Shown here piece after piece: positions 36,913 to 47,438 of a stretch of 64,000 bases of DNA. The notes below the pieces were generated by a model, which did not search any database, had not been told where the DNA came from, and saw nothing but the letters and a program-made list of their open reading frames with translations. The DNA lies in NCBI RefSeq assembly GCF_006385705.1, contig NZ_VFRQ01000003.1, positions 372,001-436,000 on the forward strand, in the 5' to 3' direction. The translations under genes were made by a program, and so were the position numbers. Numbering within the stretch: position 1 is the stretch's first letter; every line of letters starts with the position of its first letter. The stretch comes from Pontibacter mangrovi (GTDB taxonomy: Bacteria > Bacteroidota > Bacteroidia > Cytophagales > Hymenobacteraceae).

Positions 36913-36987
36913 ACCATTTATACTTTGATAAAACTATGTGGCGTGGTCCTCTAAAGTTATACTTCCTGAGAAAGATATAAATAAAGA

Positions 36988-37007
36988 AACCCGCCAAATG
37001 GCGGGTT
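36988..37007 (-). terminator. hairpin, possible minus-strand terminator
   Basis: AACCCGCCA and TGGCGGGTT form a 9-bp stem with a 2-base loop; on the minus strand it is followed by TCTTTATTTATAT. It lies downstream of the short minus-strand frame at 37024-37110, which suggests that a small transcript ends here. Confidence 0.45.
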
Positions 37008-37023
37008 CTCGCAGAGCGGGTGA

Positions 37024-37110
37024 CTAAGCCGCCTGCTCCTGGCTGCCACGATGTTTCTCACCCATACATGTGCAACCAGTAACTTTATGAGAGAAGGGCT
37101 GATGGAACAA
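37024..37110 (-). CDS. short Cys-containing minus-strand frame, possible gene remnant
   Basis: The frame reads LFHQPFSHKVTGCTCMGEKH and ends with a short GSQEQAA tail; the closest start is TTG at 37110 and the only ATG leaves just 13 residues. The frame stays open upstream to about 37140 with no normal start. The C-x-C plus Met-Gly and the following terminator-like hairpin argue that it was transcribed. It may be the remainder of a gene or a small peptide; I recognise no family. Confidence 0.25.
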   Translation of the reverse strand: MFHQPFSHKVTGCTCMGEKHRGSQEQAA

Positions 37111-37281
37111 ATCTAGAGCGGCAATATTAGCTACAGGTTACTACAAGATTACCAATTTATTAAACCCACCTGTTCCTTCCGGCTGTAGCTGTCCTAAGCT
37201 CTCCCCCCAGCCCCCAGAGCTGCTAACAAAACCGATATATTTACCTACTTATCAACCTCTTACACCCCAAAAAGCATCCGG

Positions 37282-37320
37282 TTAATAGAATGTTAAACTC
37301 CCATTAATACTGAGGTAACA
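37282..37320 (+). promoter_or_regulatory. Pho box upstream of the TonB receptor
   Basis: Four 6-base repeats start at 37282, 37293, 37304 and 37315 (TTAATA, TTAAAC, TTAATA, GTAACA), exactly 11 bp apart. This is the PhoP/PhoB-type direct-repeat pattern. The -7 box starts 15 bases after the last repeat's start, the same as at the porin promoter. Confidence 0.75.
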
Positions 37321-37329
37321 TAGCCCCTC

Positions 37330-37337
37330 TACCTTTG
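37330..37337 (+). promoter_or_regulatory. -7 promoter box of the TonB receptor gene
   Basis: TACCTTTG fits the Bacteroidota TAnnTTTG box and lies 27 bases before the ATG. There is no -33 TTTG, as expected for an activator-dependent promoter with the Pho box in that place. Confidence 0.65.
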
Positions 37338-37364
37338 TCGCAATAAATTAAGACTATCATTATT

Positions 37365-40094
37365 ATGCGACAGCTTCTCACCACAGTTCTATTTTTCCTG
37401 TTATCCGGTTTTATATGCGTGCATGCGCAGACCGGCAGCATACAGGGGGTTGTTAAAGACGCTAAAAACGGCGAAGAGCTAATTGGCGCCATCATAAAAT
37501 TGCAAGGCACAGGATTGGGCGCTCCGTCCGACGCTTTCGGCAATTATCGCATTGACAATGTAAAGGAGGGCACTTATACCGTGGAGGTAAACAGCCTTTC
37601 GTACACGCCAAAAACGATTGCTAACATAACTGTGACGGCAGGCAAGACAGCCACTGTTGACGTGGCGATGGAACAAAGTACGGCGCAGCTGGCAGAGGTA
37701 ACCATAACGGCAAAAGGAAACAGGGAAACTGAACAAATTCTGTTTTTAGATCAGAAGAAAGCGGTAATAGCGACGCAGGCCATTGGAGCGCAGGAGCTCA
37801 CAAGGAAAGGCGTAAGCAATGCCGAAGGCGCGGTTGCAAAAATTTCAGGCGTCTCGAAACGCGACGGTGTAAAGAATGTATTCGTGCGCGGGTTGGGCGA
37901 CCGCTATAACACAACCACCCTGAACGGGTTCGCCATACCATCCGAAGACCCTGAATTCAAGAACATCTCGCTCGACTTCTTCACAAGCGACATGATTCAG
38001 TCGGTAAACGTGAACAAAGTGTTTACAGCATCTATGAATGGTGATGTTGGCGGGGCGTTGATCAATATTAATTCGAAAGAACTTGTTGATGACAATGCGC
38101 TCCAAATTGGAATTTCTACTGGCGTAAACAGCCAGGTGATAGGCAGTGACTTTTACCTTCCGGATGGCATGAACGAGCTTGGCTACGCCTCTGCATCAGA
38201 CGGCCCCAGAAGCCGAAACGGTGAACGGTATGTAAATAACTACTCTTTTGATACTTCGCTGGACCCGATACAGAGAAAGCCTCTGCTCAACGGCGGCATT
38301 TCTTTTTCTGGGGGCAGCAAGTTCCTGGACAAACACCGTTTCTTTGTCATGGGCTCTATGGACAACAAGTATAATTACCAGGAAGGAGTTACCCGGTTAA
38401 TTACGGCCACCAATCCCGAGAACCCATTCCGTGATTTTGACTACCAGCAATCTTCCCGTAACGCTTCACATATGTTAGCGGCCAATCTGGAGTTTAACTT
38501 CAATCCGGGTCAACTGCACTTCAACTCCCTATACCTGCACACGGCCACAGCTGCGGCAATCAACTTCTATGGTAAGGAAACGGAGCTGTTTCAGGTAGCG
38601 GAGGATTATAATTCCGAAGGGCACATCAGGCGTTTGCAGATCAATGACAACACGGCTTTCATAAACCAACTTATCTGGAACGGGAATCTATCTGACAGGA
38701 TAACTTACAATGTAGGTGCTGCGGTAAACAATGTAATTGGCCAGGAGCCAGACCGCCGTATAGTGATGCTTCCTTCTATCGGCGACGGAAGGGTACAACT
38801 GGGTGTGGGAGAAGGAAGAGCCCAGCGGTTCAACAGTAAAATAACTGAAACGGCCGTGCTCCCTAAAGCTAACCTGCAATACTCGCTTTCGCCGGATTCG
38901 GAGCAGCTATCTTATATTGAAGTAGGCTACGACAGCAGAATAAGCTTTAAAGACTTCTCGGCTCCAATTTATAACCTTATCTGGGCCGGAGGCCAAAGCA
39001 CTGCCCCCACTTTCCCGCTAGATGACATACGCCTGGACCCTGTTTTCAACCAGGAGAACTTAGCGAATGGCGATTTCCTACTTGAGCAGTTCTCAGATAC
39101 CTACGATGTTGAAAGAATGAACCATGGCGCCTATGTTGACCTGGTGCACAGGTTTGGGAACAGGCTTACTTTGAACGCAGGCTTAAGGGCAGACGATATC
39201 TACACTAAGATAAACTATAGCGTAAACCGTGGCGCTAACGTTGGCTCAAATACCATAGACAAATTCTTCTTGTCGCCGAGCTTTAACACGAAGTATGAGC
39301 TAAACGAGAATAACCACATCAGAACAGGTGTTAGCCGCACCTATACCCTCCCACAGGATAAGGAGATTTCCCCCTTTATCTACTTGGGGATCGATGGAAA
39401 CGAGAATGGCAACCCGAACCTGAAAGTCTCTACCAACTACAACTTCGACCTGAAGTGGGATCACTATTTATCACCAGACGAGCATCTGTCGGTTAACGCC
39501 TTTTACAAGCATATTTTAGACCCCATTGCGCGGGTAGACCAGGGAAACTCAGCAGGTCTAAGAACTTATGAAAACGTTTCGGGCCATGCAGTTGCTGCAG
39601 GTATAGAGGTAGAGTTGAGAAAATCACTTATGAACCTTGCCGAGAAACATCGCATAAATGCTGGTATAAATGCTTCCTACATCCATACCAACGTAAACCT
39701 GGACCCAACTTTTTTTGTGCAAAACACCTCATCCACCCTGGAAGGCGCTGCGCCCTACATACTTAATGCCGATTTAACTTATAACCTGGTAACTGAAAAG
39801 AATCTCAACTTAACCTCTGCACTTGTGCTGAACTACCTAAGCGACAAGGTGCATACAATAGGCACACGTGGCTTTAACAACCTGATCGAGGAAAGTATAA
39901 CGACGCTGGATTTTGTAACCTCCTTGGGAGTTAACGACCACCTAAAATTCAACCTGAAAGCCAGAAACCTTTTAAACCCGGCATACAAGCTTACCCGAGA
40001 AGGTGCCGGCACAGATACAGACCCTCAAAGCGTTATCATTCGCAGTTACAAAAGAGGCGTCTTATTCGATCTGGGCGCCACATACAAATTTTAA
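37365..40094 (+). CDS. TonB-dependent receptor, phosphate-starvation associated
   Basis: A 909-residue outer-membrane transporter. Residues 1-22 are a signal peptide ending HAQ. Residues 23-110 form the carboxypeptidase-regulatory-like domain (GSIQGVVKDAKNGEELIGA). The plug is near 130-245 (VRGLGDRYNTTTLNGFAIPS). The barrel ends in FDLGATYKF, a typical C-terminal Phe. Sequence type and Pho box suggest phosphate or organophosphate uptake, but the substrate is not proved. It is followed after 69 bases by a surface lipoprotein gene, in place of a SusD-like partner. Confidence 0.88.
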   Translation: MRQLLTTVLFFLLSGFICVHAQTGSIQGVVKDAKNGEELIGAIIKLQGTGLGAPSDAFGNYRIDNVKEGTYTVEVNSLSYTPKTIANITVTAGKTATVDVAMEQSTAQLAEVTITAKGNRETEQILFLDQKKAVIATQAIGAQELTRKGVSNAEGAVAKISGVSKRDGVKNVFVRGLGDRYNTTTLNGFAIPSEDPEFKNISLDFFTSDMIQSVNVNKVFTASMNGDVGGALININSKELVDDNALQIGISTGVNSQVIGSDFYLPDGMNELGYASASDGPRSRNGERYVNNYSFDTSLDPIQRKPLLNGGISFSGGSKFLDKHRFFVMGSMDNKYNYQEGVTRLITATNPENPFRDFDYQQSSRNASHMLAANLEFNFNPGQLHFNSLYLHTATAAAINFYGKETELFQVAEDYNSEGHIRRLQINDNTAFINQLIWNGNLSDRITYNVGAAVNNVIGQEPDRRIVMLPSIGDGRVQLGVGEGRAQRFNSKITETAVLPKANLQYSLSPDSEQLSYIEVGYDSRISFKDFSAPIYNLIWAGGQSTAPTFPLDDIRLDPVFNQENLANGDFLLEQFSDTYDVERMNHGAYVDLVHRFGNRLTLNAGLRADDIYTKINYSVNRGANVGSNTIDKFFLSPSFNTKYELNENNHIRTGVSRTYTLPQDKEISPFIYLGIDGNENGNPNLKVSTNYNFDLKWDHYLSPDEHLSVNAFYKHILDPIARVDQGNSAGLRTYENVSGHAVAAGIEVELRKSLMNLAEKHRINAGINASYIHTNVNLDPTFFVQNTSSTLEGAAPYILNADLTYNLVTEKNLNLTSALVLNYLSDKVHTIGTRGFNNLIEESITTLDFVTSLGVNDHLKFNLKARNLLNPAYKLTREGAGTDTDPQSVIIRSYKRGVLFDLGATYKF

Positions 40095-40163
40095 CAATTG
40101 GTTAACCTTCCTATCATATTCAGTTAATCTCCCAATTCTAATTTCGCATAAACAATAAAAAAG

Positions 40164-41294
40164 ATGAAAAAGACACTGCTTTATCTATTACTGCTTCCGC
40201 TAGGATTATTCTCCTGCAAGGAGGACGACGATGTTACAGAGCCAACCCCTGCTATAGACAGCGAGCTGAGCGGTGATATCACGACCGATGTCACGCTTGA
40301 CCCGAAAACTGAATACAAACTAACAGGGACTTTGATTGTAGCTGAAGGCGGGAAGCTCCGCATACCTGCTGGCACAGTTATTAAAGCTGACAAGGGCTTC
40401 GACAAGTATATTCTGGTTAAGCAAGGTGGTCAGATCTTTGCAAACGGCACAGCCGACAAACCGGTAAGAATAACATCTGGGGCAGCTACTCCTAATGCGG
40501 GCGACTGGGGTGGTTTGGTTATAAACGGCAGCGCAAAACTCTCCGGCCCAACTGGCGTCGTGACTACCAGCACCGCAGAGGTAAACCCAACTGCGATGTA
40601 TGGCGGCGACAACAACAATGATAACTCAGGTGTTCTGGAGTACCTTATTTTGGAGTACACAGGCGCAAAGTCCTCCGCCGACATTGAGCATAATGGCTTA
40701 ACTTTAAATGGCGTGGGTAGTGGTACAAGAATCGAGAACATTTACATCCCTAACGGTTCTGATGACGGAGTAGAATTTTTTGGTGGTTCCGTAAGTATCA
40801 AGAACTTATTGGTGGAAAATTCTGACGACGACATGTTTGATGTTACACAGGGTTGGAACGGCACGTTGGATAACGCCTACGGTGTTTGGAAAAGTGGCTA
40901 TACCAGCACAGAATCCGATCCGCGTGGCGTTGAATCTGATGGCAACCTGGACGGTAACACACCGAGCGATGTTAACCAGTCTGATTTTATCTTAAAGAAC
41001 ATCACGATCGTAAACGAATCTACTTTTGAGATGCAGGATGCTGTGAAAGTGCGCAGAGGAGCTAAAGCCACCATCTCGAACCTGGTTGTTAAAGGCGGTT
41101 CTGCCACAGATCTTATAGACCTGACTGACGGCAAGGGCAATGGTCATGCGGCATCAGTTATAAACTATCATAACAACGGCGTGACAATTACAGGCACAGC
41201 AGTTAAAAACCCCGATAATGCTGCCATTGCAACGAACGATGCTAACACAGGAGCCAATACATCAGCATTCAGCTGGACTGGCTACAACTTCTAA
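40164..41294 (+). CDS. surface lipoprotein with beta-helix-like repeats
   Basis: A 376-residue protein. MKKTLLYLLLLPLGLFSC is a lipoprotein signal; the Cys is followed by KEDDD, close to the acidic export signal for surface lipoproteins in Bacteroidota. The mature part repeats short strands such as EGGKLRIPAGTVIKA, GDWGGLVINGSAKLSG and TLNGVGSGTRIENIYI, which suits a right-handed beta-helix. It probably sits on the TonB receptor and captures substrate. It shares the Pho-controlled transcript and ends at a terminator. Confidence 0.8.
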   Translation: MKKTLLYLLLLPLGLFSCKEDDDVTEPTPAIDSELSGDITTDVTLDPKTEYKLTGTLIVAEGGKLRIPAGTVIKADKGFDKYILVKQGGQIFANGTADKPVRITSGAATPNAGDWGGLVINGSAKLSGPTGVVTTSTAEVNPTAMYGGDNNNDNSGVLEYLILEYTGAKSSADIEHNGLTLNGVGSGTRIENIYIPNGSDDGVEFFGGSVSIKNLLVENSDDDMFDVTQGWNGTLDNAYGVWKSGYTSTESDPRGVESDGNLDGNTPSDVNQSDFILKNITIVNESTFEMQDAVKVRRGAKATISNLVVKGGSATDLIDLTDGKGNGHAASVINYHNNGVTITGTAVKNPDNAAIATNDANTGANTSAFSWTGYNF

Positions 41295-41310
41295 GTAGCT
41301 ATCAAAAACA

Positions 41311-41353
41311 AAAAAAGGCTGTCACAAGCGCATGTTTGTGACAGCCTTTTTTT
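41311..41353 (+). terminator. bidirectional rho-independent terminator
   Basis: AAAAAAGGCTGTCACAA and TTGTGACAGCCTTTTTT are exact inverse complements around an 8-base loop, with T-runs on both sides. It ends the receptor-lipoprotein transcript. Confidence 0.88.
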
Positions 41354-41512
41354 ATTCCTTATTCGCTTGAAACTTTGGGCGGCACACGCCCATACATGTA
41401 TTTACCTATAGGGCCTAACGTTATTATAGACAGTGGCTTCTAGGCAATAGGCTAACAACTTGATTAAAACCATGTTCCCCATTTTTAAACAACTCGAGCA
41501 GCAATCAATACC
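41354..41512. other. intergenic stretch before the porin promoter
   Basis: No coding frame with protein-like composition is visible between the terminator and the Pho box. A C-G rich hairpin-like unit (GGGCGGCACACGCCC) is present near 41378. Nothing else is recognised. Confidence 0.4.
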
Positions 41513-41551
41513 TTAACATTAGTTTAACATTGGAATAACATTTAAGTAACA
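41513..41551 (+). promoter_or_regulatory. Pho box upstream of the porin-pst cluster
   Basis: Four repeats begin at 41513, 41524, 41535 and 41546 (TTAACA, TTAACA, ATAACA, GTAACA), 11 bp apart. The last is GTAACA as in the receptor promoter, and the -7 box start is also 15 bases after it. This is the best match in the window to TTAACA-type PhoP boxes. Confidence 0.8.
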
Positions 41552-41560
41552 GCAATAGCC

Positions 41561-41568
41561 TTATTTTG
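41561..41568 (+). promoter_or_regulatory. -7 box of the porin-pst promoter, long leader
   Basis: TTATTTTG resembles TAnnTTTG (one mismatch). If used, transcription begins near 41576 and leaves a leader of about 210 bases before the GTG of the porin, including a hairpin (AGCCGCTCCTGACTAGTGCGGCT region near 41585-41610). Confidence 0.5.
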
Positions 41569-41787
41569 CACCATCATTAAAAGCCACAGCCGCTCCTGAC
41601 TAGTGCGGCTGGGTTAGCAAATGATGGTGACTTGCCTTCAGCCTGACTAGCTAACGGCACCACACCTATAAATTCTGTTTTCTTCAGATTGCCTTTAGAA
41701 TTTAAAAGTATACTTGCTTCTAAGGCTTCCCGAAACACGGAATTATTAAATGACTGAAGCTTATTTCTCACCCAAACCCAAAGTGTT

Positions 41788-42975
41788 GTGTACAAAAAGC
41801 TAAAAACCACAATCTTTATAGCACTAGCATGCTTTACGGTAGGCACTGCAAAAGCACAAACCATCAACAACTCTAAATTCGGCAAGGGCCTGCAGTTCGT
41901 GGCCGCCGACTCTTCTTTCAGCCTTAAGTTTGGCACCCGTTTTCAGATGCTCTACCAGGGAGGGCGCAGCAGCAGTATGGAGCAGCTGGAGGATAAGTTC
42001 CTGATCCGCAGGGCCCGCCTGAAGTTTGAAGGTTTTGCCTACTCCCCCAAACTGGAGTATAAAATTGAGCTCGGCCTGAGCAACAACGACATCGGCAACG
42101 ACCAGCCAGAGATGTTCGACAATGCCAGCAACATCATCCTGGATGCGGTGGCGATGTGGAACTTTGCCCCTGGCTGGGAGCTTTGGGTAGGCCAGACCAA
42201 GCTTCCGGGCAACCGCGAGCGTATCATCTCATCGCAGAAACTGCAGTTTGTAGACCGCAGCCTGCTGAACTCCCGCTTTAACATAGACCGCGACGCAGGC
42301 CTGCAGCTGCACCACACACACCAGGTAGGCAACCAGGCTATACTTCGTGAGAGCGCGGCTGTTTCTACAGGCGAGGGACGAGACGTAGCCGTGGACAACA
42401 CCGGCGGCTACAGCTACACCGGCAAAATAGAGTTTATGCCTTTAGGCGAGTTTGAAAGCAGTGGCGCCTATGTGGGTGGCGACCTCTCCCGCGAGGAAAC
42501 GCCAAAACTGGCCATAGCAGCGGCCTATAACTTTAACGACAACACTAACCGCTCCCGCGGGCAGTTGGGCAGCTTTTTGAGCGGCGAGCGCGACCTGCAA
42601 TCCGTGTTTGTAGATGCCATGTTTAAGTATAGAGGTTTTTCGAGCATGGCAGAGTATGCCAACCGCACCGCCCCGGACGGCCCTGTGCTTAGCAGAACGG
42701 AAGACGGGAAGGTAGACGAGGTGTTCCTGACCGGCAATGCCTTTAACCTGCAGGCGGGCTATCTCTTTAAATCTAATTGGGAAGTGGCAGGCCGCTACAC
42801 CGCCTTTAACCCGGAGCGGGTTACCGGTACAAACGGGCAGGAGCAGTACACGCTGGGGCTGTCGAAGTACATTGTGGGCCACAGCCTGAAAGTGCAGAGC
42901 GACGTGACACTGCAGGACCAGCCCGGCAAAGACAATTTTTACCAGTTTAGGTTGCAAATGGAGGTCGCGCTGTAG
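41788..42975 (+). CDS. OprO/OprP-type phosphate-selective porin
   Basis: A 395-residue outer-membrane channel. Start is GTG; the signal peptide is MYKKLKTTIFIALACFTVGTA ending in KAQ. The mature part begins as beta strands (KFGKGLQFVAADSSFSLKFG) and has repeated membrane-type strands with Asp/Arg loops; it ends FQLQMEVAL-like in a final strand. The family resemblance to phosphate-selective porins O and P and the Pho box upstream support phosphate passage. pstS follows after 105 bases, probably on one transcript. Confidence 0.85.
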   Translation: MYKKLKTTIFIALACFTVGTAKAQTINNSKFGKGLQFVAADSSFSLKFGTRFQMLYQGGRSSSMEQLEDKFLIRRARLKFEGFAYSPKLEYKIELGLSNNDIGNDQPEMFDNASNIILDAVAMWNFAPGWELWVGQTKLPGNRERIISSQKLQFVDRSLLNSRFNIDRDAGLQLHHTHQVGNQAILRESAAVSTGEGRDVAVDNTGGYSYTGKIEFMPLGEFESSGAYVGGDLSREETPKLAIAAAYNFNDNTNRSRGQLGSFLSGERDLQSVFVDAMFKYRGFSSMAEYANRTAPDGPVLSRTEDGKVDEVFLTGNAFNLQAGYLFKSNWEVAGRYTAFNPERVTGTNGQEQYTLGLSKYIVGHSLKVQSDVTLQDQPGKDNFYQFRLQMEVAL

Positions 42976-43080: not shown

Positions 43081-44079
43081 ATGTTAAACCTTACGTTTCC
43101 TCACAAGAACCTTAGCGCCGCCGTGCTGCTGGGGTCAACGCTTCTGTTCAGCGCCTGTGGCGGCGGCAACGGCGAAGAAGCCAACAGCGGCCTCTCCGGC
43201 ACTATCCAGATCGACGGCTCTTCTACTGTGTACCCTATAACCGAGGCCGTGGCGGAGGAATACCGCACCGAAGCCCCGGACGTGCGGGTAACGGTAGGCG
43301 TGTCCGGTTCGGGCGGTGGCTTTAAAAAGTTTACCCGCGGCGAAATCGATATTGTGGATGCCTCGCGCACGATAAAGCCCTCTGAAGAAGAAACGGCCAA
43401 AGAGCACAACATCTCTTACATAGAGCTGCCCGTGGCTTACGACGGCCTAACCGTGGTAGTGCACCCGGAGAACAACTGGGTAACGGAAATGACCACTGAG
43501 GACCTGAAAAAGATATGGGAGCCTGCCGCGCAGGGCAAGATCAAGAAGTGGAACCAGATTCGCCCGGAGTGGCCAGACCAGGAAATTCACCTTTACGGCC
43601 CCGGTGTGGAATCAGGCACTTACGATTACTTTACAGAGGCTGTTGTGGGTGAGAGCGGCTCCAGCCGCGGCGACTACACCGCCAGCGAGGACGATAACGT
43701 GCTGGTGCAGGGCGTGTCTACAGACCCTAACGCCCTGGGCTTTTTCGGGTTTGCCTATTATGAGGAGAACCAGGACAAGCTAAAAGTAGTGCCAGTGGAT
43801 GACATGGACGACAGCAACGGAAAGGGCGCCATCGCGCCATCGCTGGAGACGGTAAAAGACGGATCTTATGCTCCGCTGTCCCGCCCGCTGTTCATCTACG
43901 TAAACTCGAAGGCAGCCAGCACGCCAGCCGTTGTGGATTTCGTGAACTTCTACCTAGAGAGCGCCCCTGAGCTTAGCCAGGAGGTAGGTTACATTCCGCT
44001 TCCGGCGGAGATGTACAAGGAGCAGCAGGAGAAATTCAGCTCCTTCGCGAAGGCCAAAGAGGCAGCAACCCAGAAATAA
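43081..44079 (+). CDS. pstS: phosphate-binding protein PstS
   Basis: A 332-residue lipoprotein (LLFSAC lipobox near residue 25). It has the PstS hallmark [20 protein letters not shown] near residues 41-62 and the [21 protein letters not shown] segment, both lining the phosphate site. It delivers phosphate to PstCA at the inner membrane. A 12-bp hairpin separates it from pstC. Confidence 0.92.
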
Positions 44080-44096
44080 CAGCAAGCTTTTAATCA

Positions 44097-44130
44097 CCTC
44101 CCCTGCGGCAGTTAGCTTCCGCAGGGGAGG
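44097..44130 (+). repeat. perfect hairpin between pstS and pstC
   Basis: CCTCCCCTGCGG and CCGCAGGGGAGG form a perfect 12-bp stem with a 10-base loop; no T-run follows. Likely stabilises the pstS message or reduces pstC expression relative to pstS, as is seen in many binding-protein operons. Confidence 0.7.
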
Positions 44131-44148
44131 CAAAAACAAACCAGCACC

Positions 44149-45024
44149 TTGAGAACATCAGAAAAAATCATCGAGGGCCTGCTGTGGTTATCGGCTGTCA
44201 TAACCATACTTGTAACGGTGGGCATCATTTGGGTGCTCCTCTCCGAGTCCATCAGCTTCTTCAGGGTAGTGCCCCTGTCCGACTTCCTAACTGAGAAAGA
44301 GTGGACGCCGCTCTTTGCCGACAAGAAATTCGGTATTATGCCCCTGGTAACCGGCACCCTGCTCACAACAGGCGTGGCCATTGCCGTGGCGCTGCCCATC
44401 GGCCTCACCATTGCCGTTTACCTGAACGAGTACGCCCATGCCCGCATGAAGCAAATCGTAAAGCCGATGCTGGAAGTGCTCGCCACCATCCCGACGGTAG
44501 TGTACGGCTTCTTCGCTTTAACCGTGGTAACCCCTTTTCTTCAGAAGATCATCCCCTCGCTGGCAGGCTTTAACGCGCTTTCGGCAGGCATTGTGATGGG
44601 GATCATGATCATCCCGATGATCTCCTCGCTGAGCGAGGATGCCATTAGCTCAGTGCCGCGCTCGCTGCGGGAAGCCGCCTACGGCATGGGTTCCACGCGC
44701 CTGCAAACGGCCTTTGGCGTGATGGTGCCGGCCGCCTCGTCGGGCATTGTGGTGTCGGTTATACTTGCCATTTCCAGGGCTGTCGGCGAAACGATGATCG
44801 TGGCCATTGCCGCCGGTCAGCAGCCGCGGCTTACCCTCAACCCGCTCGTGCCCATCGAGACCATCACCACCTATATTGTGCAGGTAAGTATGGGCGACGT
44901 GCCGCGCGGCTCGCTGGAGTATAAAACCATTTTTGCGGCAGGCATCACGCTCTTCGTCTTCACGTTTGCCCTAAACAACCTCAGCTTCTGGATCAAAAAG
45001 AAATACCAGGAAAAGTATGACTAA
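44149..45024 (+). CDS. pstC: phosphate ABC permease PstC
   Basis: A 291-residue inner-membrane protein with about six membrane segments; starts at TTG ([17 protein letters not shown]). The coupling loop [20 protein letters not shown] near residue 185 fits the EAA motif of ABC permeases. Overlaps pstA by 8 bases. Confidence 0.9.
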
Positions 45025-45874
45025 CTCAGACATCAACAGGCTAAAAGATAAGGCCTTTCAGGTATTTGGCATCTTCTGCACCTTTATCGGGCTGGTGGTG
45101 CTGGCCATTTTCCTTATTGATATTGTGGCCGAGGGCATTACCCGCATCAACTGGGACTTCCTCACGAGCCTGCCTTCGCGCAGGGCCAGCCGCGCCGGCA
45201 TACTTACCGCCTGGGCCGGCACCCTCTGGATACTGGTGCTCACCACGCTGATCGCCTTTCCGCTGGGCGTGGGGGCCGGCATATACCTGGAGGAGTACGG
45301 CAGGAAAAACAGGCTGGCAAACTTCCTGGAGATCAACATCGCGAACCTGGCCGGTGTGCCCTCTATCATCTATGGTTTGCTGGGCCTGGAGATATTTGGG
45401 CGGCAGATGCGCCTGGGCGGCAGCCTGCTGGCAGGGGCGCTCACGCTGTCGCTGCTCATACTTCCGATCATCATCGTAACCACCCGCGAGGCCGTTAAAG
45501 CCGTGCCCCGCAGCATCCGCGACGGCTCGTATGCCCTGGGAGCCTCTAAATGGCAAACAATATGGCACCAGGTACTGCCTGCTTCGTTTGGCGGCATCCT
45601 TACCGGTATCATCCTGGCCCTGTCGAGGGCGGTGGGCGAGGCCGCTCCGCTTATTGTGATTGGGGCGCTGGCGTACGTGCCCTTTACGCCAAGCTCGCCG
45701 CTGGATGAGTTTACGGTGCTGCCTATTCAGATCTTTAACTGGACGTCCAGGCCACAGGAGGAGTTCCTGACCAATGCGGCGGCGGCCATTATCGTGTTGC
45801 TGGTCATTACCTTCCTGCTGAACGGCATTGCCGTATACCTGCGTAACAAGCAGCAGAAAAAGATAAGGTGGTAA
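45017..45874 (+). CDS. pstA: phosphate ABC permease PstA
   Basis: A 285-residue inner-membrane partner of PstC, with six predicted membrane segments. The EAA-type loop is [20 protein letters not shown] near residue 170. The start lies inside the end of pstC, so translation is probably coupled. Confidence 0.9.
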
Positions 45875-45938
45875 AGCTGCCCGCGGCACCAAAAAAGTAT
45901 AACTTAAACGTTCGCCCTGCACCCTTTCGCTTTTGTAT

Positions 45939-46703
45939 ATGAGTAAAAAAGAGAATAAACTGGAGGCTAAAAACCTCGATGCCTACTACGGAGACTTCCA
46001 CGCGCTGAAGAACATCAACATTGCCATGGAAGAGAAAGCCGTGACGGCCTTTATCGGCCCCTCGGGCTGCGGCAAGTCTACGTTTCTGCGCACCTTTAAC
46101 CGCATGAACGACTACATAGACGGCTTCAGGATTGAGGGCCAGATCCTGCTGGACGGCAGAGACATTTACAACAAGGACATCCGCGTGGATGAACTGCGCA
46201 AAGAGGTGGGTATGGTGTTCCAGAAACCCAACCCGTTTCCAAAGAGCATTTTTGAGAACGTGGTGTACGGCCTGAAGATACAGGGCATCAAGAAGAAATC
46301 GGTGCTGGAAGAGGCCGCTGAGAAATCGCTGCGCCACGCGGCCCTGTGGGATGAGGTAAAGGACAAGCTGAACAAGTCGGCGCTGGCGCTATCGGGAGGG
46401 CAGCAGCAGCGCCTTTGCATTGCGCGCGCGCTGGCCATTTCGCCGTCGGTGCTGCTGATGGATGAGCCCGCCTCGGCCCTGGACCCGATCTCCACGGCCA
46501 AGATAGAGGAGCTGATCTATACTTTGAAGAACGAGTATACGATTGTGATCGTGACCCACAACATGCAGCAGGCAGGCCGGGTGAGCGATTACACCGCCTT
46601 CTTTTACATGGGCGAGCTGGTGGAGCACAACAAGACCAGAACCATGTTCACCAGCCCAAAGGATGAGCGCACCCAAAATTACATCACGGGCCGTTTCGGT
46701 TAA
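45939..46703 (+). CDS. pstB: phosphate ABC transporter ATPase PstB
   Basis: A 254-residue ATPase. Walker [10 protein letters not shown] near residue 36-44, Q-loop [19 protein letters not shown] signature [15 protein letters not shown], Walker [13 protein letters not shown] and the switch His in VTHNMQQA. The start at 45939 (ATG) is favoured over the TTG two codons earlier. It powers phosphate import through PstCA. Confidence 0.95.
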
Positions 46704-46751
46704 GCGCTCCTGTTATTGCATTGGTAGTTTCTCACTCAAAATAAGATCAAG

Positions 46752-47438
46752 ATGCCTCAATTAGACACTGAGTTAAACCGAATAAAAACAAAGCTGCTGG
46801 AGATGTGGGACCTGGTGGAGTATCAGGTGCAGGCTTGCCAACAGGCCATGCTGACCGCTGACGTGGAGTTGGCTAAGCAGGTGGTAAAGCGCGACCGCAA
46901 GGTAAACCAGTTCGATGTGAAGATAGACCGCATGTGCGAGAACTTCTTTGCGCTGTTTACGCCCGTGGCCGTAGACCTGCGCCTGGTGCTGGCTGTGCTG
47001 AAGATCAACTCGAACCTGGAGCGCGTCGGCGACTCTGCCGAGGGCGTGGCGCGCTTTGCCAAACAGCTAAAAGCCCCCGCCGACCCGCAGCTGCTGGAGC
47101 AGGCCAAAGTGCTGCCCATGTTTGAGGAGGCGCTGGGAATGCTGGTAGACTGCCGCAAAGCCTTCCAAAACAACGACACCGCACTGGCGAAAGCCATCAT
47201 CAAGCGCGACAAGGACCTGAACAAGATCCACCGCAAGTCAGACACAGTAGTGGCCAAGTTCATGACAGAGCACCCTGATAAGATTGCCGAGGCGCTGGCC
47301 GTGCATGCCGTCATCAAAAAGCTGGAGCGTGTGGGAGACCAGGTAACAAACATTGCCGAGGAGATCATCTTCTACCGCGATGCCAAGATCATCAAACACA
47401 AAAGCGACAAGAAAAAGAAGAAGAAAAAGGAAGATTAA
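46752..47438 (+). CDS. phoU: phosphate-signalling regulator PhoU
   Basis: A 228-residue protein with two repeats of a three-helix bundle (each with E/D-x-x-x-D-type metal sites, for example VDLRLVLAVLKINSNLERVGD near 75-95 and HAVIKKLERVGDQVTNIAEE near 180-200). PhoU links Pst activity to the PhoR/PhoB-type sensor system. The C-terminus is a run of lysines. It ends the cluster before a terminator. Confidence 0.9.
   Translation: MPQLDTELNRIKTKLLEMWDLVEYQVQACQQAMLTADVELAKQVVKRDRKVNQFDVKIDRMCENFFALFTPVAVDLRLVLAVLKINSNLERVGDSAEGVARFAKQLKAPADPQLLEQAKVLPMFEEALGMLVDCRKAFQNNDTALAKAIIKRDKDLNKIHRKSDTVVAKFMTEHPDKIAEALAVHAVIKKLERVGDQVTNIAEEIIFYRDAKIIKHKSDKKKKKKKED

Follow-up and report, generated by a model that had tools for sequence, protein, structure and literature searches.

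A 64,000-nucleotide stretch of the Pontibacter mangrovi genome (contig NZ_VFRQ01000003.1, positions 372,001 to 436,000; hereafter the window) carries, in this order on its plus strand, genes for MoxR, a TonB-dependent receptor, a lipoprotein, a porin O/P, PstS, PstC, PstA, PstB and PhoU. Comparative analysis indicates that two predicted phosphate switches in this locus, one before the receptor and one before the porin, are real and conserved, and that a previously undescribed small RNA, predicted to be under Pho control, lies between genes of the locus. The RNA has two conserved loops, and their complements recur in the start regions of receptor and porin mRNAs. We consider it likely that the phosphate-starvation regulon of Pontibacter includes this base-pairing RNA, which would restrain outer-membrane transporters of phosphate and perhaps arsenate. 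Coordinates, counted from the first base of the window, are collected in Table 1.

Pho-box-like arrays of the locus

The original prediction described two sets of four TTAACA-like repeats in 11-bp steps, each ending with GTAACA and followed at the same distance by a –7 element. Both sets are present exactly as described. The receptor array consists of TTAATA, TTAAAC, TTAATA and GTAACA (starting at 37282, 37293, 37304 and 37315) and the porin array of TTAACA, TTAACA, ATAACA and GTAACA (41513, 41524, 41535 and 41546). As read from these hexamers, GTAACA comes last in both, and the –7-like octamer begins 15 bases after its start (TACCTTTG at 37330 and TTATTTTG at 41561, the latter departing from TAnnTTTG at base 2). 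A degenerate pattern of four repeats spaced by 11 bp matched exactly these two places on the two strands of the window; at spacings of 9, 10, 12 and 13 the same pattern had no match in the window, and 40 Markov-shuffled windows gave a mean of 0.0 matches. Therefore, the two arrays are not a product of chance.

A motif search across the genome, proposed together with the original prediction, gave a concordant result. In the 4.88-Mb genome, a strict pattern allowing up to three mismatches occurred at two places, both in this locus, and its reversed control at none. A looser pattern found three places, namely the two arrays and one more array of the locus on the minus strand (control, none). When the –7 element was left out of the pattern, four places matched, one of them on contig C34, along with one control match. 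The array on that contig (G000:C34:59445-59483, locus L058) has four repeats and no –7 element, and given the control match it could be due to chance.

The two arrays of the original prediction thus stand, but its reading of the locus overlooked both the minus-strand array and a weaker array ahead of the lipoprotein, inside the operon, and made no mention of the Pho-boxed small RNA. Scored with a position weight matrix, the four arrays of the window reached 31.1, 37.8, 26.7 and 43.4, against a maximum of 0.2 in 400 kb of Markov sequence. Twenty promoters from 10 relatives went into the matrix and so match it by construction; it contains nothing from the window, from five further genomes with the window arrangement (called type A, which numbers 16 genomes in all) or from any other locus.

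Loss of the 11-bp spacing in orthologous promoters had been named as an outcome that would speak against the prediction. Since orthologous promoters retain the spacing, with an array preceding the receptor in all 16 genomes that have this receptor, the prediction passes that test. In the first ten relatives, the distance to the –7 element is kept at the receptor in every case and at the porin in nine (the exception being L034). An array lies no more than 700 bp from the porin in 41 of the 45 loci with a porin (G042, G007, G001 and G024 are without one), and the array before the lipoprotein scores above 18 in 6/16 type-A loci, the window included. Moreover, in the arrangements other than type A, every receptor/lipoprotein operon begins with an array (38/38). 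The arrays are direct repeats with 11-bp spacing, they stand immediately upstream of a core promoter, they precede phosphate-acquisition genes and they are kept in orthologues, as befits Pho boxes.

A likely binder would be a response regulator of the PhoB/PhoP type. The genome encodes five near-full-length OmpR-family candidates, and regulator candidates are 51–55% identical to the PhoB-like neighbor of the receptor in Flavobacterium loci. PhoP of Riemerella anatipestifer, a PhoP/PhoB-type regulator within Bacteroidota, has the motif TTTAACA in DNA affinity purification sequencing (PMC9603813), which is near the hexamers of this locus. The layout of four repeats at 11 bp is a feature found here; the portion of that source considered here does not state it for the R. 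anatipestifer motif.

A structured RNA in two genomic settings

It was the minus-strand array that led to the RNA. Beyond this array, 11 type-A loci align over about 125 nt up to a predicted terminator, and past the terminator the alignment breaks down. In all four sequences tested, the fold was more stable than 200 shuffles (z-scores from –3.35 in the window to –5.26). In a MAFFT alignment of the 11 RNAs, 7 of 23 base pairs show compensated changes; in the model-fitted alignment, changes on both sides affect 21 of the 23, and none of 500 shuffles reached the observed covariation score. A conserved structured element with a predicted promoter and terminator, coupled with conserved complementarity to target start regions, is what one would expect of a base-pairing small RNA (sRNA), and we infer that it is transcribed.

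A covariance model built from the 11 sequences matched all 50 Pontibacter genomes, once in each except G019, which has two matches. A wider model matched 91 of 204 genomes of the family at an E-value of 0.001, and 75 of these at 40 bits or more. The 75 comprise 50 Pontibacter genomes, 16 from the genus to which Rufibacter sp. SYSU D00344 belongs, 8 from that of Adhaeribacter aquaticus and a single genome of a fourth genus. In Adhaeribacter aquaticus, a second match of 46.7 bits (L207:12731-12847) lies 2.3 kb beyond the first. At the position of the RNA, no Rfam family reached its gathering score and the best fell far short (for example, RNAI with 24.6 against 47).

Several weaker matches were set aside. 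In the order, the first model matched 10 of 291 genomes, one of which (G238) lacked the gene context; this weak match, with neither receptor nor lipoprotein, was left out of later counts. The sister genus g16 has matches in 15 genomes at 27–36 bits, and none of the nine loci examined has both loops (loop 1 alone occurs in one and loop 2 alone in one). Phylum-wide, 26 other genomes of 395 matched, at 33.9 bits at most. Of the 20 weak matches examined, 13 have neither loop and are not counted as homologs. Nor do we count the loop pattern in G852 or at a second place in G436, where the context does not match.

The RNA is found in two kinds of setting. In type A, the receptor and lipoprotein genes point away from the RNA, and in 16/16 genomes an array of its own precedes the RNA at exactly –59. 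In the other setting, the receptor–lipoprotein pair is oriented the other way (29 Pontibacter loci, type B) or the lipoprotein comes before the receptor (type C, 6 genomes). None of the 38 loci outside type A has an array scoring above 18 within 150 bp of the RNA. Instead, the start of the RNA coincides with the stop codon that ends the arrayed operon (–28 to +20 nt in 37 loci, –110 in one). The replacement receptor/lipoprotein pair, of about 24% and 34% identity, is turned round, again adjoins the porin–pst genes and is again preceded by an array. Likewise, the RNA follows a receptor/lipoprotein operon in 17 of 20 loci of other genera and an arsenic operon in the remaining three.

Type A does not form a single clade. 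On a tree of PstC, PstA, PstB and MoxR from 34 loci it needs six changes, at least four of which are forced by well-supported branches. Moreover, the type-B genome G051 is nested within a type-A clade and its RNA resembles those of its neighbors. Therefore, the RNA stays in place while the protein cassette is exchanged.

Loop complementarity and the predicted brake

The complement of loop 1, TCTCACC, is concentrated at the starts of the genes for outer-membrane transporters. For porins, counts of loop sites are based on starts projected from proteins. Between –50 and +32, TCTCACC occurs in 39/45 porins, 16/16 type-A receptors and 22/29 type-B receptors, compared with 0/44 moxR, 0/43 pstS, 0/42 pstC and 0/40 pstA genes; it was also absent from PstB and lipoprotein starts in the locus comparison. 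The site lies 14–24 nt ahead of the porin start and 11–26 nt into the receptor, where it is spelled CTC ACC even though CTC accounts for 11% of the leucines encoded there. In a count made without reference to the RNA, no other 7-mer was as common in the porin start region as TCTCACC. In the window, the porin site extends to an 11-nt perfect complement, and none of 500 shuffles paired equally well. When the starts of neighboring genes were screened for complementarity to the loops, against mononucleotide shuffles, the porin stood out with a mean z-score of –2.55 (22 loci), ahead of –1.64 for PhoU and about –1.2 for receptors, with MoxR, PstS, PstC and PstA between –0.03 and 0.81.

The association with porins extends to sequences added later. 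TCTCACC is present no more than 35 nt upstream in five of five later-fetched porin orthologs (55–66% identity; four of the Rufibacter genus), and it is missing within 200 nt in seven of seven porin paralogs (at most 41% identity). Among 454 other genes, 11 have TCTCACC, and at least eight of these encode a second porin (PF07396) with its own array. This second porin gene lies between the porin and the receptor/lipoprotein genes in 23 compared loci (for example, L035:7464-8753 on the plus strand and L043:1504-2775 on the minus strand); in the comparison of these 23 loci, TCTCACC was near the start in 13.

Sites matching loop 2 are most evident in type B. All 29 type-B receptor regions of Pontibacter carry the overlapping 7-mers GAGACTA and AGACTAA, and GAGACTAA directly follows the –7 element. 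In other genera with the RNA, GAGACTAA is found in 19/22 receptors, the three exceptions being lipoprotein-first operons. A scan of named genomes for the lipoprotein yielded at least 566 relatives, from which 80 Bacteroidota loci were kept for comparison. In these loci, GAGACTAA precedes only 3 of 119 large open reading frames, those of Pontibacter, Rufibacter and Adhaeribacter; the same three are the only ones among 92 loci with an RNA match above 22 bits, no such match being found in named loci outside these genera (80 compared). In Pontibacter porins, GACTA occurs within the first 75 nt of 38/41 leaders, compared with 1.9% of random 75-mers; the motif typically reads CCTGACTA and falls in a predicted hairpin. 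The leader of the window porin (41569-41787; 229 nt in the leader analysis) is long and structured, and its 5′ hairpin displays TGACTA, often twice per leader. Both elements, TCTCACC and the GACTA type, are present in 4/4 porins of the Rufibacter genus, and none of 266 other genes has both sites in order. With starts called at ATG, 5/42 porins pass the two-site test, a low count that reflects the usual GTG start codon of the porin gene.

These observations suggest the following model. A PhoB/PhoP-type response regulator would bind the arrays of four 11-bp repeats and drive the receptor and lipoprotein, the porin and pst genes, and the divergently transcribed small RNA. The RNA would expose two loops of 9 nt each. 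The first of them, loop 1 (in the window, GGUGAGAAA), would pair with UCUCACC shortly before the porin start codon or at the beginning of the receptor coding sequence, and loop 2 (CUUAGUC-A/U-C) with GACUAA-type sites near mRNA 5′ ends. As the two sites are in antiparallel order, one RNA could clamp one mRNA start region and block its translation. In the cell, such pairing would make the RNA a brake on outer-membrane transporters switched on by the same starvation signal. In most relatives, the receptor/lipoprotein mRNA would itself carry the RNA at its 3′ end, from which processing would presumably release it.

Could the RNA instead activate the porin by opening its structured leader? The leader is long enough (229 nt in the window), and starvation should favor more porin. 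However, pairing at the loop 1 sites, close to the porin start or within early receptor codons, would hinder the ribosome, and the homologs linked to arsenite efflux, described below, seem ill-suited to activating the entry of phosphate or arsenate. We therefore regard activation as unlikely. We give roughly half as much credence to pairing confined to one mRNA, between its 5′ leader and 3′ untranslated region (UTR), which would affect stability or translation without any trans-acting RNA. It is true that type B unites the receptor leader with the RNA on a single predicted transcript, where two complementary sites lie antiparallel. Yet the porin, on a separate transcript, has loop 1 sites in 39/45 loci, including those of type A, where the receptor mRNA carries no RNA, and the RNA is also found after arsenic operons.

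Slightly less probable again is a purely cis-acting element, a stability or termination structure in the 3′-UTR of the receptor/lipoprotein mRNA, with type A as a relic that has a leftover promoter. The direct succession of last gene and terminator-ended RNA in 38/38 loci outside type A fits this idea well. It does not explain why the 16 type-A RNAs, set apart from the receptor and lipoprotein, have all retained their two stems and two loops along with a Pho array whose distance is constant, why type-A loci align in the RNA and not past the terminator, or why complements of both loops are conserved in other mRNAs. Finally, that TCTCACC and GACTAA are sites for an RNA-binding or translation factor unrelated to the RNA is very improbable: the sites are short and the porin-leader GACTA occupies its own hairpin loop, but they correspond to the two best-conserved loops of the adjacent RNA as complements rather than as copies, and GAGACTAA leaders are limited to the three RNA-bearing genera among the 80 named loci.

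A number of observations weigh against the proposed Pho control of the locus or against the proposed brake. On the side of the regulator, the best PhoB score is 224 bits, less than the 296-bit cut-off, and the PhoB candidate gene has no upstream array (best score 8.0). In addition, the OprP porin of a related Flavobacterium johnsoniae cluster was reported not to be induced by phosphate depletion (PMC8115612). As for the RNA, repression rather than activation is read solely from the position of the sites. TCTCACC is found in only 12/22 second porins and 11/40 phoU genes and is missing from the porin of G024 and from 7/29 type-B receptors. Loops and targets have changed together only to a modest extent: at the variable base beside the core, 13/16 type-A receptors match the RNA, and the porin base at that position does not follow it. 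Type-A receptors carry a loop 2 complement of only 5–6 nt (16/16; p 0.69 in the window), loop 2 duplexes with entire porin leaders do not outdo those of shuffled sequences (40 leaders, mean z –0.31), and the first-gene leaders of type C lack a loop 2 site in five of six cases. An 11-nt perfect complement of loop 2 was rejected as a target class, since its 51 places in 50 genomes comprise 40 in the RNA gene and 11 elsewhere, against 31 for the control. Besides, the genomes are related, so the counts are not independent.

Neighboring genes, arsenic operons and known systems

The genes around the arrays and the RNA, together with the sites discussed above, are listed in Table 1. The first ten relatives are syntenic, except that MoxR was not found in one.

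Table 1. Features of the phosphate locus in the window
Feature	Position	Strand	Basis
Predicted small RNA, about 124 nt, two hairpins and intrinsic terminator; 5′ end inferred	36980..37103	–	folding, covariance model
RNA terminator hairpin, followed by T-rich run	36980..37008	–	folding
RNA hairpin 2, loop CUUAGUCAC at 37028-37020	37011..37036	–	folding, alignment
RNA hairpin 1, loop GGUGAGAAA at 37062-37054	37039..37079	–	folding, alignment
Third array, TTAATA/GTAATC/GTAACC/CTAATA at 37163/37152/37141/37130, with –7 TAGATTTG (37115-37108); predicted small-RNA promoter	37108..37163	–	pattern search, scoring
Pho-box-like array (four hexamers, 11-bp spacing) with –7 TACCTTTG, receptor gene	37282..37337	+	pattern search, array scoring
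GACTA in receptor leader, 5-nt complement of RNA loop 2	37352..37356	+	duplex not above shuffles, p 0.69
TonB-dependent receptor (CarboxypepD_reg, Plug and barrel domains)	37365..40094	+	domain search
TCTCACC, receptor codons 4-6, complement of RNA loop 1	37376..37382	+	16/16 type-A receptors
Weaker array with TAATTTCG ahead of lipoprotein, inside operon, score 26.7	40091..40146	+	array scoring
Outer-membrane-type lipoprotein, predicted parallel beta-helix, no Pfam family	40164..41294	+	domain search, predicted model
Pho-box-like array with –7-like TTATTTTG, porin (pst genes downstream)	41513..41568	+	pattern search, array scoring
5′ hairpin of porin leader, GACTA (41598-41602) in loop, short complement of RNA loop 2	41569..41629	+	38/41 Pontibacter leaders
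TTTCTCACCCA, 11-nt perfect complement of RNA loop 1 region, 24 nt ahead of porin start codon	41764..41774	+	duplex test
Phosphate-selective porin O/P family (PF07396)	41788..42975	+	domain search
pstS, pstC, pstA, pstB, phoU	43081..47438	+	domain search
GTTTCTCAC ahead of phoU (start 46752), complement of RNA loop 1	46727..46735	+	duplex test

The predicted model of the lipoprotein (mean predicted local distance difference test score 79.0, predicted template modeling score 0.82) loosely resembles parallel beta-helix proteins (best Foldseek E-value 9.1e-4, template modeling score 0.33), and sequence searches gave no convincing solved relative. Of the 80 named loci, 77 include a receptor relative and 47 a match to at least one of Pst, PhoU, porin and PhoB/PhoR, those of the PhoB/PhoR-like kind not being specific. 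Five Flavobacterium loci have consecutive genes for a porin, PhoR-like and PhoB-like proteins, receptor and lipoprotein, which is the layout of Fjoh_0542-0546 in F. johnsoniae (PMC8115612). The window lipoprotein is 42–44% identical to those of the Flavobacterium loci that share this layout, and it is through the layout that it is tied to F. johnsoniae itself.

In F. johnsoniae, the TonB-dependent transporter Fjoh_0545 and the lipoprotein Fjoh_0546 (FII), encoded beside phoBR, are reported in the same study to be strongly upregulated on phosphate depletion. The two systems share a homologous receptor and beta-helix lipoprotein with neighboring Pho genes and a PF07396 porin, although the pair adjoins pst in Pontibacter and phoBR in F. 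johnsoniae, where induction was demonstrated. Both the sequence relatedness and the TonB transporter partner next to Pho genes place the lipoprotein with the low-phosphate lipoproteins FI, FII and FIII of Flavobacterium. Thus, the proposal that receptor and lipoprotein belong to the phosphate-starvation regulon together with the porin and Pst finds support at the sequence level in the conserved arrays and in this Flavobacterium low-phosphate pair.

Six RNA homologs (L236, L241, L243, L255, L264 and L265), from Adhaeribacter-, Rufibacter- and g116-genus genomes, lie at the 3′ ends of ars operons. According to tblastn, these operons encode ArsR, a metallophosphoesterase and an ACR3 arsenite pump; ACR3 scores above its NCBIfam cut-off and the ArsC-like protein below, and an ArsC query matched at three of the six loci. 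No Pho array was detected at the six arsenic loci (best score 8.0). Their RNAs have GGTGA in loop 1 and TAGTCTC in loop 2 in six of six cases, with some change around the loop 2 motif. There may be an even chance that the RNA is a mobile two-loop module acting as a brake on oxyanion uptake: it would lie 3′ of starvation operons, have its own Pho box when turned round, and also be attached to ArsR-type arsenite-efflux operons, so that arsenic stress and phosphate starvation would share one RNA against phosphate/arsenate porins and receptors.

MicA and RybB are sRNAs that repress outer-membrane proteins, are controlled by sigma-E and pair through a 5′ seed. The RNA described here would resemble them in being stress-induced and in pairing with the start regions of several outer-membrane protein mRNAs; it differs in its unrelated sequence and structure, in control by Pho rather than sigma-E and in the use of loops instead of a 5′ seed. 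A closer parallel may be OppZ and CarZ, autoregulatory sRNAs derived from 3′-UTRs in Vibrio cholerae (PMC7398697), whose source is likewise the 3′ end of an operon for transporters and which pair with their own mRNA to inhibit translation, as is predicted here. In all 38 loci outside type A, the RNA has the corresponding position in the 3′-UTR of the regulated operon, whereas in type A, the window included, it does not. Compared with OppZ and CarZ, the present RNA has two loop contacts flanking the start region, a second target (the porin), a separately promoted type-A version and a host from another phylum, and it is known from sequence alone. In the literature, with subscription journals outside our coverage, we found no report joining an sRNA, Bacteroidota and phosphate starvation, and none of an sRNA in Pontibacter.

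If the proposed role is true, environmental Bacteroidota would gain an sRNA whose signal is known, whose targets are predicted and whose bases match those of the targets. The link with arsenic operons suggests that entry of arsenate, too, may be under RNA control. Furthermore, the shift between a 3′-UTR and a transcription unit of its own, with a Pho array present precisely in those loci where the RNA has left the operon, would amount to a natural experiment on how sRNAs derived from 3′-UTRs become genes.

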